Part shown: positions 1,482-5,537 of the stretch, piece by piece
How positions within the stretch are numbered: the first letter of the stretch is position 1
How the letters are laid out: every line of letters begins with the position of its first letter
DNA from: Ignavibacteriales bacterium
Lineage (GTDB): Bacteria > Bacteroidota > Ignavibacteria > Ignavibacteriales > Ignavibacteriaceae
DNA length: 64,000 nucleotides
Direction: 5' to 3'
Assembly (NCBI GenBank): GCA_020061465.1
Contig: JAGUYG010000020.1
Coordinates: forward strand, 62,001-126,000
Program-made: the position numbers and the translations under genes
Notes under the pieces: generated by a model
The model's database searches: none
Told to the model about the DNA's origin: nothing
What the model saw: only the letters and a program-made list of their open reading frames with translations

Positions 1482-1997
1482 ATGAAAAAAATATTCGTCA
1501 TATTAGTGCTGATAAGTATATTAATCTTAAGTAATTGCGGTGGAGGTATAGAACCCGAACCAGAAATACCGAAGGAAGAGAGAGCCGGTTTCAGCGGAAC
1601 TATTTATTTTAAAGGTGAATGGAACCCCGCGGTAAAAAGGACTCATTTAGTCGTCTTCAAAGACCCATTGAATTCTGCAGCGGATTTTAACATCTTCAAT
1701 CTAAAGTTTGTTAGTCTTGAAATTCCTTATGAAACTCAAGAATACAGTTACAATTCAACGGATTCGGCTTACGTTCCCATCTCTGCCGGAGAGTATTCGT
1801 ATGTAGCAGTAGCGCAATCATTAGCAGAGGAGTTGTCTCTTGATAGAAAAGATTGGTTTGTAGCAGGTGTTTATTATGCGGAAGGCGATACAATTAATCC
1901 TGACAGACTAGTAATACCGGAGAAGACACTTATAAAAGGAATCGATATTATTTGCGATTTCGATAACCCGCCGCCCCAGCCCCCGGGAGGTTTTTAA
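1482..1997 (+). CDS. Small outer-membrane lipoprotein, unknown function
   Basis: The 171-aa product starts with a type II signal peptide: a Lys-Lys n-region, a hydrophobic stretch and a lipobox ending LSNC at about residue 19, followed by three Gly. The mature part is short, beta-rich and ends in a Pro-rich tail (PPPQPPGGF). No known family was recognised. The stop codon overlaps the ATG of the following TonB-dependent receptor by one base, so the two are very likely translationally coupled. By analogy with other receptor/lipoprotein pairs it may help the receptor at the cell surface, but this is inference. No Shine-Dalgarno sequence is visible before the start. Confidence 0.7.
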   Translation: MKKIFVILVLISILILSNCGGGIEPEPEIPKEERAGFSGTIYFKGEWNPAVKRTHLVVFKDPLNSAADFNIFNLKFVSLEIPYETQEYSYNSTDSAYVPISAGEYSYVAVAQSLAEELSLDRKDWFVAGVYYAEGDTINPDRLVIPEKTLIKGIDIICDFDNPPPQPPGGF

Positions 1998-4159
1998 TGA
2001 TTAAGATATTTGCAGCAATTGTTTTTCTTGCCGGCATTTCATTTGCCCAAACTTACAGCATAAAGGGAATAGTAACCGATACCTCCGGAATACCATTAAC
2101 AGGTGTCAATGTACTTTTAGTTGGTACCCGGTTTGGAACTGCGACCAACTCAAATGGCTTTTTTGAATTGAAAAATTTAACTCCCGGAAAATATTCATTA
2201 CGCTTTTCCATGATAGGATACGAAAGACATGTTTTAAGAAATGTTACATTGGAAAATCAATCGCTTAACCTCACAATTATTTTAAAAGAAAAAATTCTGC
2301 AGTCCGAACAAGTAGTTGTTACTGCCGGAAAGCATGAGCAAAAAATCGGCGACTTGCCTGTAAGTGCTTCCATCATTGAACCGGATTTCATTGAAAAAAA
2401 AGCATTTACTAACCTCGAAAATGTTTTGAGGTATGCGCCCGGGATAAATATGACGGAAGGGCAAATAAGTATTAGAGGTTCTAGCGGTTACAGCAGGGGT
2501 GCCGGGACGCGAGCATTAGTAGCTATTGACGGAATTCCATATTATACGGGCGATACCGGTGAAACTATATGGGAAGTAATTCCTCTTCATACTTTAGAGA
2601 GAATAGAAATTATTAAGGGGGCTTCAAGCTCACTTTATGGTTCTTCTGCAATCGGAGGCGTAATAAATGTTATAACCAAACCGATACAGAAATCTCCGGT
2701 TACTTTTATTAAAAGTCACTTTGGATTTTACGATAAACCCTCGCATGAAGAATGGGACTGGTCCGATAATCTAAGAACGCTAAATGGGCTGACGGTGGCA
2801 CATTCAAATCGAATAGGAAATTTTGGATTTGGTGCGTCATTTACACGTTATGAAGATTTAAGCTATAAACAAAATAATTACTCAAAGAAATACATTGGTT
2901 TCTTAAAAGGCACAATCGATTTTGAAAATGCATCTTCAATTACTCTTCTTGCTAATTCATTCAACAAGCGGGGAGGAAGTTTTTTATATTGGAAGAATTC
3001 TCGAAATGCACTAGTGCCTCCCGATAATGATCAAGGAGAAACAATAAGCACCAATCGATACATGGCGGGTCTTTTGTACCAACGCTTCATCTTTAACGGA
3101 ACACTGCTTAATGTAAAAGCATCTTACTACCGAAACAATTGGTCTGATCGAAGCGAAGTTCAAAACAATTCTACTTCAAATTTATATCGGGGTGAAATTC
3201 AAACAACCTCGGAAATTTTTACTAACGCGATTCTTGTTTCCGGAATTGAAGCAAGCACCGCTAATGTCAAATCAAGTATATTCGGAAATCCGGGTTACTC
3301 CGGATTCGGCGTTTACTCTCAGATGGATTATTCCTATAACCTTCCGGTTACTCTTACCTTTGGGCTTCGATATGATATGATTAAGCTCGATACGCTCGAA
3401 AGCTCAAACGCATTTTCTCCCAAGCTTGGATTGAATATAAGAATAACCGATGATCTAAGATTTCGTTCTTCCATTGGAACAGGATTCAGAGCACCTTCGC
3501 TTGCTGAAGCTTTTACCTCCACGTCAACAAGCGGGATAACTGTAAAACCCAATCCCAACTTAAAGCCTGAAAAAAATTTTTCGCTTGAAGCGGGACTTTT
3601 CTTTACGCCGGGAGATGCAGTTTCATTTGATATAGCATTTTTCAGAAATGAATATTTTGATTTTATTGAACCTGGAATTGATTTGACCGACGGTTTGGTA
3701 ATTTTCGATAACGTAACGAGAGCAAGGATTCTCGGGCTTGAATTCAATTCGAAGTTTTTTTTGCTGGATGATGCTTTAACTTTATCTGCCAATTATACAT
3801 ACTTATGGGCGCGTGACATTAACGAAAGGAAGTTTTTGAAATATCGACCAAGACATATTGCAGTTACAGGTATTGATTATAAAATAAATTCGTTTGAGAT
3901 AGGAGCCGATTTTCGATACTGGAGCCGTATTGAAGAAATAGATATCGAGTTAATAGAATTAGGTTTAGTTCCAGAAGGTGATAAAAGGGTTGCAGTTTAT
4001 GTGTTGGATCTCAGATGCGGGCTGGGCTTTTCCTTAGCCGGTTTGGCTTTTAAAACTTATCTAAATGTTAACAATGCGCTAAATTATAATTATGTTGAGC
4101 TTATCGGAAACATTGCACCGATAAGACATTTTAATCTTAGCCTTGAAATTTCCATCTAA
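1997..4159 (+). CDS. TonB-dependent outer-membrane receptor
   Basis: The 720-aa protein has a cleavable signal peptide (ends near FAQ, residue 18) and a carboxypeptidase-regulatory-like beta-sandwich domain at about 20-100 (GIVTDTSGIPLTGVNVLL). A plug domain at about 115-230 carries the typical IRGSSGYSRGAG, ERIEIIKG and SSLYGSSAIGGVINVITK motifs. A 22-strand-type beta-barrel fills the rest and contains GFRAPSLAEAF and LKPEKNFSLEAG. It would import a scarce solute such as a metal chelate, cobalamin or oligosaccharide across the outer membrane using TonB energy; the substrate cannot be read from the sequence. It overlaps the upstream lipoprotein gene by 1 nt and ends just before the TatD fusion gene. 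Length is normal for the family. Confidence 0.92.
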   Translation: MIKIFAAIVFLAGISFAQTYSIKGIVTDTSGIPLTGVNVLLVGTRFGTATNSNGFFELKNLTPGKYSLRFSMIGYERHVLRNVTLENQSLNLTIILKEKILQSEQVVVTAGKHEQKIGDLPVSASIIEPDFIEKKAFTNLENVLRYAPGINMTEGQISIRGSSGYSRGAGTRALVAIDGIPYYTGDTGETIWEVIPLHTLERIEIIKGASSSLYGSSAIGGVINVITKPIQKSPVTFIKSHFGFYDKPSHEEWDWSDNLRTLNGLTVAHSNRIGNFGFGASFTRYEDLSYKQNNYSKKYIGFLKGTIDFENASSITLLANSFNKRGGSFLYWKNSRNALVPPDNDQGETISTNRYMAGLLYQRFIFNGTLLNVKASYYRNNWSDRSEVQNNSTSNLYRGEIQTTSEIFTNAILVSGIEASTANVKSSIFGNPGYSGFGVYSQMDYSYNLPVTLTFGLRYDMIKLDTLESSNAFSPKLGLNIRITDDLRFRSSIGTGFRAPSLAEAFTSTSTSGITVKPNPNLKPEKNFSLEAGLFFTPGDAVSFDIAFFRNEYFDFIEPGIDLTDGLVIFDNVTRARILGLEFNSKFFLLDDALTLSANYTYLWARDINERKFLKYRPRHIAVTGIDYKINSFEIGADFRYWSRIEEIDIELIELGLVPEGDKRVAVYVLDLRCGLGFSLAGLAFKTYLNVNNALNYNYVELIGNIAPIRHFNLSLEISI

Positions 4160-4175
4160 TCATTCAGGGGAATTT

Positions 4176-5537
4176 ATGTTCGTTGACACTCACGCTCATT
4201 TGTTTTATCCAAATTTTAGTGAAGACCTTGACGCTGTAATAAACCGCGCAAAAGGTGCCGGAGTTGATTACATCGTTGTACCTTCAACCGATATTAAAAC
4301 TGCAAAAGAAACTTTAAATCTTCTAAATAAATATGATATGCTTTATGGTGCTGTAGGAGTCCACCCTCATGAAACAAAAGAATGGAACCCTTCATTGCTT
4401 GATGAACTTAAGCAGCTTGCCAAACATGAAAAGGTGGTTGCCATCGGTGAAATCGGGCTGGATTATTATTACGACTTTTCACCGAAGGAAAAACAAATCG
4501 AAGCATTCACAGCTCAGATTGATCTTGCTCTTCAGCTTGATTTACCGATTATTGTTCACAATAGAGATTCGGACAAGGATATGATGGATATTATTAAGCA
4601 GTATGCAGGAACAGGCTTGAGAGCGCAATTCCACTGCTTTAACGGTTCGCTGGATGATATGCGCGATTTGATAAGGATGCATCACTTCATTTCTTTTACA
4701 GGCAACATCACGTTTGCTAAGGCTGATGCGCTAAGGGAGATCGCCTCAAAAACACGTCTTGAGCATCTGCTGCTTGAAACAGATTCTCCGTTTATGACAC
4801 CCGTTCCTAATAGAGGCAAGCGAAATGAACCGGCTAATGTTGTAAAAGTGGCGGAGGCAATCGCAGAACTTCATAAATTTTCCCTGGAAGATATATCGAG
4901 GATTACCTCTATGAATGTTTTTCGTTTTTTCGGAATAGGCAGCGAACCGAAGACAAGCTTTACTTATAAAATCGGTAATTCCCTTTATGTCAATATAACC
5001 AACCGTTGCGATTCGGACTGCATTTTTTGTCATCGTAAAAATGATGCTACGGTAAAAGGATACAATTTAAAGATGAGCAAAAGCGAAGAACCGGAAGCCG
5101 ATTTATTTATAAAAGAAATTGGAGACCCCACAAAGTATAAGGAAATAGTTTTTTGCGGTTTTGGAGAACCGACAATTAGGTGGGAAGTTGTGAAACAAAT
5201 TTCAAAATATGTTAAGGATAACGGAGGCAGAACAAGACTTAACACTAACGGACACGGCAATTATATTAACAAGAGAAATATAACTCCCGAATTAAGCGGA
5301 CTTATAGATGAGGTATCGATAAGTATTAACACTGTCGATCCAAGACAATATGCAGAAATCATGCGTGTTGAGACGAGATTATTTAATGAAATGGTAAACT
5401 TTGCCAAAAGCGCAAAAGCATTTGTCGATAAAGTAATAATGACTGTTGTTTCAATTGATAAGGTGGAAATTGAGAAAGCTAGGCAGGTGGTTGAAGAAAA
5501 AATTGGTGCAGAGTTTAAGGTGAGAGAATATTTTTAA
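4176..5537 (+). CDS. TatD family hydrolase fused to a radical SAM domain
   Basis: The start at 4176 is chosen over an in-frame TTG at 4143 because an AGGGGAA ribosome site lies just before it and the TatD fold begins at once (FVDTHAHL). Residues 1-255 are a TatD-type metal-dependent deoxyribonuclease: HxH at residues 6 and 8, GEIGLDYYYD, the conserved IVHNRD and LLLETDSPF motifs. Residues about 260-453 form a small radical SAM domain with Cys278, Cys282 and Cys285 in the CX3CX2C arrangement for a 4Fe-4S cluster, then FCGFGEPT and a TRLNTNGHG motif. Radical SAM proteins associated with TatD are a known family, often encoded separately; here both are in one 453-aa chain. The reaction of the radical SAM half is unknown. 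Confidence 0.9.
   Translation: MFVDTHAHLFYPNFSEDLDAVINRAKGAGVDYIVVPSTDIKTAKETLNLLNKYDMLYGAVGVHPHETKEWNPSLLDELKQLAKHEKVVAIGEIGLDYYYDFSPKEKQIEAFTAQIDLALQLDLPIIVHNRDSDKDMMDIIKQYAGTGLRAQFHCFNGSLDDMRDLIRMHHFISFTGNITFAKADALREIASKTRLEHLLLETDSPFMTPVPNRGKRNEPANVVKVAEAIAELHKFSLEDISRITSMNVFRFFGIGSEPKTSFTYKIGNSLYVNITNRCDSDCIFCHRKNDATVKGYNLKMSKSEEPEADLFIKEIGDPTKYKEIVFCGFGEPTIRWEVVKQISKYVKDNGGRTRLNTNGHGNYINKRNITPELSGLIDEVSISINTVDPRQYAEIMRVETRLFNEMVNFAKSAKAFVDKVIMTVVSIDKVEIEKARQVVEEKIGAEFKVREYF

Follow-up and report, generated by a model that had tools for sequence, protein, structure and literature searches.

The window analyzed here, a stretch of 64,000 nucleotides from an Ignavibacteriales genome, contains on its forward strand an open frame at 4176-5537 that translates into 453 residues and a stop codon with no internal stops. 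ATG 4176 was taken as the likelier start, since a longer open frame from TTG 4143 reaches back into the TonB-receptor gene upstream, which ends at 4159. The gene is flanked on one side by this TonB-dependent receptor gene and on the other by prmA; all three are on the forward strand. Its features are as follows.

4176-5537, forward strand: whole gene, a TatD nuclease-radical SAM fusion of 453 aa (frame, NCBIfam, Pfam, homologue alignment).
4176-4934, forward strand: TatD nuclease domain (YcfH-type, HxH), residues 1-253 (TIGR00010, PF01026, fold).
4191-4199, forward strand: HxH metal motif, H6 and H8 (alignment of fused rows).
4935-4958, forward strand: interdomain linker, residues 254-261 (gap between the local profile matches).
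4959-5531, forward strand: radical SAM domain (TIGR04038), residues 262-452 (profile score, model, fold).
5007-5030, forward strand: CX3CX2C [4Fe-4S] cluster motif, C278, C282 and C285 (alignment).
5151-5171, forward strand: FCGxGEP motif, a presumed SAM-binding Gly/Glu stretch with C327 in front.

Just upstream, at 1482-4159, lie a small lipoprotein-like gene and the TonB receptor gene. A TonB family (neighbour family 16) was found near the radical SAM gene at 12 loci, the window's gene being counted twice, and a similar-looking lipoprotein family (neighbour family 31), to which the window's small gene was assigned by eye, at 8.

The initial annotation had placed a TatD nuclease and a radical SAM enzyme in one 453-residue chain with both metal sites intact, and this description holds. 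The single frame is unbroken and both domains exceed their curated NCBIfam cut-offs, with TIGR00010 (TatD) matching residues 2-253 at 274.1 bits (cut-off 206) and TIGR04038 (tatD_link_rSAM) matching residues 262-452 at 219 bits (cut-off 129.7) over 190 of its 192 model positions; HxH (H6, H8) and CX3CX2C (C278, C282, C285) are both present. Pfam concurs with NCBIfam (PF01026 and PF04055, the latter at 54.4 bits against 29.5). The radical SAM domain is a bare core with nothing further C-terminal. In the source genome (4.2 Mb, 122 contigs), the fusion, which scores 221.6 bits in the TIGR04038 profile search of the whole genome, is the sole place over the TIGR04038 cut-off and, in the TIGR00010 search, the sole TatD over its cut-off. 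A second TatD, on contig C79 (locus L005), is a 251-aa frame without a radical SAM domain and scores 143.1 bits against the cut-off of 206.

The rival explanation that a sequencing or assembly error fused two frames has a negligible probability. The window protein was aligned with 40 of the 61 fused loci from a whole-protein search, and all 40 homologues, which come from other assemblies and share 38-70% identity with it, run in one frame across the junction. The same joint in other assemblies rules out a frameshift or assembly artefact and excludes an error at 4930-4990 as far as is possible without reads; no point in favor of such an error was found. The whole-protein search covered 79 loci (61 fused, 16 split, 1 alone and 1 at a contig end), a sample biased to fusions because the query is itself a fusion.

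When local TatD and radical SAM profiles were applied to 203 loci, 118 were fused, 39 split (a separate TatD frame in the same locus) and 42 alone (TatD absent from the retrieved stretch), and 4 had no radical SAM match. The 118 fused loci represent 113 distinct sequences, the window's gene having entered twice (L001, L004). Measured between the local profile matches, the linker ranges from 6 to 13 residues and is 6 or 7 residues long in 104 of the 118 (6 in 57, 7 in 47, 8 in 10, 9 in 3 and 13 in 1). Two very long frames, G749 (851 aa) and G855 (618 aa), were considered as candidates for a third domain, a reading that was rejected: the frames at L179 and L178 begin with upstream read-through, judged non-coding by eye, and continue as an ordinary TatD-radical SAM pair. 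At one locus inside the Ignavibacteria fused group (L058), TatD and radical SAM are two frames 7 bases apart, either a recent split or a sequence error in the metagenome-assembled genome (MAG).

The distribution of fused and separate forms was determined by a TIGR04038 profile search of six phylum samples at E<=1e-25, in which an open frame of at least 400 aa was taken as fused. Both domain profiles were run on 58 such frames and 57 proved truly fused, so that 85 of the 142 fused calls rest on frame length; the exception, G362 (493 aa), carries the radical SAM domain only, so that frame length is no proof of fusion, and was counted as separate. Summed over the six samples, the 304 TIGR04038 places comprise 142 fused genes, 159 separate genes and 3 truncated at a contig end. 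The sample from the phylum of the window has 67 places in 65 of its 296 genomes (42 fused, 24 separate, 1 at a contig end), and the 24 separate genes come from 22 genomes, every one of genus code g65. The gene was found in 49 of 118 genomes of the Nitrospirae MAG phylum (48 fused, 1 contig end), 37 of 198 of the deltaproteobacterial MAG phylum (36 fused, 1 contig end) and 15 of 78 of the Omnitrophota MAG phylum (all 15 fused). Separate genes account for all 71 cases among 299 genomes of the Clostridia MAG phylum (after the G362 check) and for 64 of 65 among 79 genomes of the Elusimicrobiota MAG phylum, the single fusion there (G939) being confirmed by profiles. Fusion thus predominates in the class to which the window belongs and in the Nitrospirota-, deltaproteobacterium- and Omnitrophota-centred samples, and separate genes in the Clostridia- and Elusimicrobiota-centred ones. 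The view that the two are normally separate genes therefore has to be given up: 142 of 304 places are fused, as are 42 of 67 in the own phylum, and three samples are nearly all fused (48/49, 36/37, 15/15). Among 14 control genomes, TIGR04038 was detected in Methanosarcina acetivorans only (E<=1e-25). On this sequence evidence, the gene is almost certainly a genuine two-domain enzyme belonging to a widespread TatD/TIGR04038 pair, of which it represents a common, fused form.

Conservation was examined in an alignment of 114 fused rows (113 distinct sequences, the window's own appearing twice). E92, H128, H153, D203, C278, C282 and C285 do not change in any of the 114, and two rows have a gap at H6 and H8, which are otherwise invariant. 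H6, H8, E92, H128, H153 and D203, which we take to be the metal ligands as in the TatD family, are also invariant columns in 41 aligned proteins. The three cluster cysteines are kept in all 39 split and all 42 alone rows as well as in the 114 fused ones, and the TatD frames paired with the 39 split genes keep H128, H153 and D203 in 39 cases, E92 in 38 (1 gap), and H6 and H8 in 35 (3 gaps, 1 substitution). Because the catalytic positions are kept in 113 distinct fused sequences, both halves are under selection. A fourth cysteine of the radical SAM domain, C327 (5154-5156), directly precedes GxGEP, whose Gly/Glu stretch is presumably SAM-binding as in radical SAM families; it is present in 114/114 fused, 39/39 split and 41/42 alone rows, and we would guess that it is a candidate catalytic residue.

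Where the two genes are split, the radical SAM frame at 36 of 39 loci follows TatD on its strand at a distance of no more than 220 bases, in some cases with an overlap; L103 (opposite strand), L116 and L183 depart from this pattern. TatD was present at 13 of 30 Clostridia-centred loci (17 without) and at 10 of 12 Elusimicrobiota-centred loci (2 without), and over half of all loci with a separate radical SAM gene (42/81) have no TatD in the retrieved stretch. TatD was therefore searched for in 46 radical SAM-bearing genomes (39 of the 42 alone cases and 7 others), and all 46 gave a match at E<=1e-20, 45 of them over the cut-off. In 36 of the 39 alone genomes TatD lies on another contig or more than 1 Mb away, and in the other three (G463, G587, G954) about 13 kb or less from the separate radical SAM gene; physical joining of the two is dispensable in some genomes. 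In 18 of 18 further genomes exactly one TatD match was found (E<=1e-15), and in 17 of them the radical SAM locus includes a TatD. TatD also exceeds the cut-off in 12 of the 14 control genomes and is near-universal, and its co-occurrence with the radical SAM gene therefore says little by itself.

The neighbouring genes, named by eye, offered nothing specific as a functional clue. At several loci outside Ignavibacteria, apparent tmk, holB and PSP1-protein genes lie upstream and ksgA downstream (neighbour families 24, 21, 15 and 11, all assigned by eye). At L181 (2079-3575, reverse strand), the end of a putative methionyl-tRNA synthetase, presumably so on account of a KMSK motif, continues into a TatD domain, apparently one without its N-terminal HxH part, and a separate radical SAM gene follows directly. 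Four separate radical SAM genes (L213, L214, L215, L219) lie about 8 kb or less from queC- and queD-like genes, likewise identified by eye.

A model of the full chain, built from 41 sequences, has a mean pLDDT of 94.5 and a pTM of 0.87, a value that, in our reading of the model, two loosely tethered domains would hardly reach. The TatD half forms a predicted TIM barrel with its metal-ligand columns intact; it is nearest to Staphylococcus aureus TatD (6l25; Z 40.4, 254 residues, rmsd 1.2) and close to Escherichia coli YcfH (1yix; Z 37.8). These results bear on the possibility that the fusion merely secures equal amounts of two independently acting enzymes, as might be expected if the radical SAM gene can sit far from tatD, which it does in the 36 of 39 genomes mentioned above; the near-constant linker over distant phyla and the confident predicted placement of the domains (pTM) suggest a fixed geometry instead, and we regard mere equal dosage as decidedly unlikely. 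The initial annotation had taken the fusion to imply a direct functional link. Such a link between the TatD and radical SAM halves is plausible, and indeed likely, given the linkage, the near-constant linker length and the confidently modelled two-domain chain; these do not extend to a shared substrate.

Because a fold search with the whole chain was filled with TatD-like barrels, the radical half was modelled alone (pLDDT 94.3, pTM 0.90) and searched separately; a one-sequence search of this half against solved structures gave no match. Its motif, model and fold all agree with a CX3CX2C radical SAM enzyme, as expected of TIGR04038, and the best structural relatives are pyruvate formate-lyase (PFL)-activating enzyme (8fo0; Z 16.4, 177 residues, rmsd 2.6), NifB (7jma; Z 15.9, 160 residues, rmsd 2.2) and viperin (5vsm; Z 15.0, 170 residues, rmsd 2.4). 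As these act on a protein, a metal cluster and a nucleotide, respectively, and lie within about 1.5 Z units of one another, the fold cannot single out nucleic acid as the substrate.

Two further alternatives arise from these fold relatives. The radical half might modify or activate a third protein, with TatD serving as a docking or delivery partner and not as a co-catalyst. The best fold is indeed that of PFL-activating enzyme (also 3cb8; Z 16.4, 179 of 194 residues, rmsd 2.7), which a sequence profile detects as well (E 7e-4), but NifB and viperin follow within about 1.5 Z units, no substrate candidate recurs across phyla among the 45 most frequent neighbour families (judged by eye), and the TatD catalytic residues are kept in every fused row that spans them, which docking alone would not require; we consider this alternative unlikely. 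Alternatively, the radical half could make or modify a small nucleotide, in the manner of viperin or QueE, and the TatD half hydrolyse or recycle the product. Despite the likeness to viperin-type structures (Z 15.0 and 14.7) and QueE (Z 12.6) and a match to the viperin family model at 6.5e-11, below that model's cut-off, this appears quite unlikely, given that no biosynthetic cluster accompanies the window's fused gene, with its TonB receptor, lipoprotein-like gene and prmA, and that the neighbours elsewhere are, by eye, mainly housekeeping genes.

Nothing tested distinguishes the window protein from TIGR04038, "TatD family nuclease-associated radical SAM protein" (NCBIfam, model kind "subfamily_domain"), whose name implies fusion to, or a position beside, TatD; here, as in 142 of 304 places, the partner is in the same chain. 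With YcfH and S. aureus TatD the TatD half shares the HxH motif, the TIGR00010 family and the fold, but those proteins end where the window chain continues into the radical SAM domain. PFL-activating enzyme, NifB and viperin share CX3CX2C and the radical SAM core with the other half at 15-22% identity in the aligned rows. The window protein falls far below the cut-offs for viperin (NF038283; 41.9 bits against 180), for PFL-activating enzyme (TIGR02493; 28.2 against 231.75), to which the likeness is one of fold alone, and for QatD of the Qat anti-phage system (NF041926; 78.8 against 230). A search of one paper library found no paper on the TatD-radical SAM pair by title or abstract start; the excerpted part of PMC3478167 carries TatD and radical SAM as separate table entries, and that of PMC13329287 concerns QatD, a different system. 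The family already bears the TatD link in its NCBI name, and the window gene is an ordinary member of it.

The history of the two halves was traced in domain trees. In an unrooted tree of 96 radical SAM domains, from a quick, short search that left 36 of 92 inner branches weak, the label "fused" took 5 changes against a shuffled mean of 31.5, and 53 of 54 fused rows fell in one region (support 83) that also holds the Elusimicrobiota genes and the separate g65 genes; a Zixibacteria fusion (L097) was placed among Clostridia genes. In a tree of 75 TatD domains the same label took 3 changes. Between the two halves, tree distances show a correlation of 0.79 for all 75 pairs, 0.77 for 50 fused and 0.91 for 25 split ones, so that fusion does not tighten the correlation, for which a common species history would account just as well as joint function. 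The separate g65 genes (L006-L027, 5 of 22 loci in the tree) nest within a mostly fused clade, next to L164, that comes from another phylum sample, a position suggestive of transfer with later loss of the TatD half. Two genomes of the g65 group carry two TIGR04038 copies.

A link between the radical SAM gene and anaerobic life was also considered and finds no support in the marker counts of the own phylum: the anaerobe marker NrdD is not enriched, occurring in 1 of 65 genomes with the gene and 17 of 231 without it, and heme-copper oxidase is present in 64 of 65 and 219 of 231, respectively, the source genome included. Within g65, NrdD (6 genomes) and TIGR04038 (22 genomes) never occur together, which could be chance or shared ancestry.

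For E. coli TatD and YcfH, the latter classed in the HxH group, the relevant part of PMC10085689 gives 3'-exonuclease activity on single strands and AP-endonuclease activity on duplex DNA. By analogy, the TatD half would be a YcfH-type metal-dependent nuclease, acting as a 3'-5' exonuclease on single strands and as an AP endonuclease on duplex DNA. On motif and fold, the C-terminal half would carry a [4Fe-4S] cluster on CX3CX2C and cleave SAM to a 5'-deoxyadenosyl radical. Taken as a whole, the best explanation, which we put at somewhat under an even chance, is a two-domain enzyme whose halves act in turn on one nucleic-acid substrate, a sequence of action that we infer from the activities of the YcfH group, the linkage and the bare radical SAM core. 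At a strand end or lesion, the radical half would alter a nucleotide or sugar that is damaged or modified, after which the TatD half would trim or incise at the altered site; the bare core probably has space to admit a large substrate, the TatD half being held next to it. The joint-substrate step itself, with both halves on the same nucleic acid, we propose tentatively. A more specific version, in which this is an unrecognised radical-based nucleic-acid repair enzyme whose radical SAM half attacks a damaged base or sugar and whose TatD half incises or trims, is very unlikely in our estimate; there, an abasic-like or blocked end would be passed to the TatD half and C327 might serve as hydrogen donor.

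The window gene adds one ordinary example to the family, and the function of the radical half is a question for TIGR04038 as a whole. Several bacterial phyla share this conserved pairing of a housekeeping nuclease with a radical SAM enzyme, and its fused form offers a handy single-gene handle on the TIGR04038 substrate and could explain the role of TatD in the bacteria that carry it.
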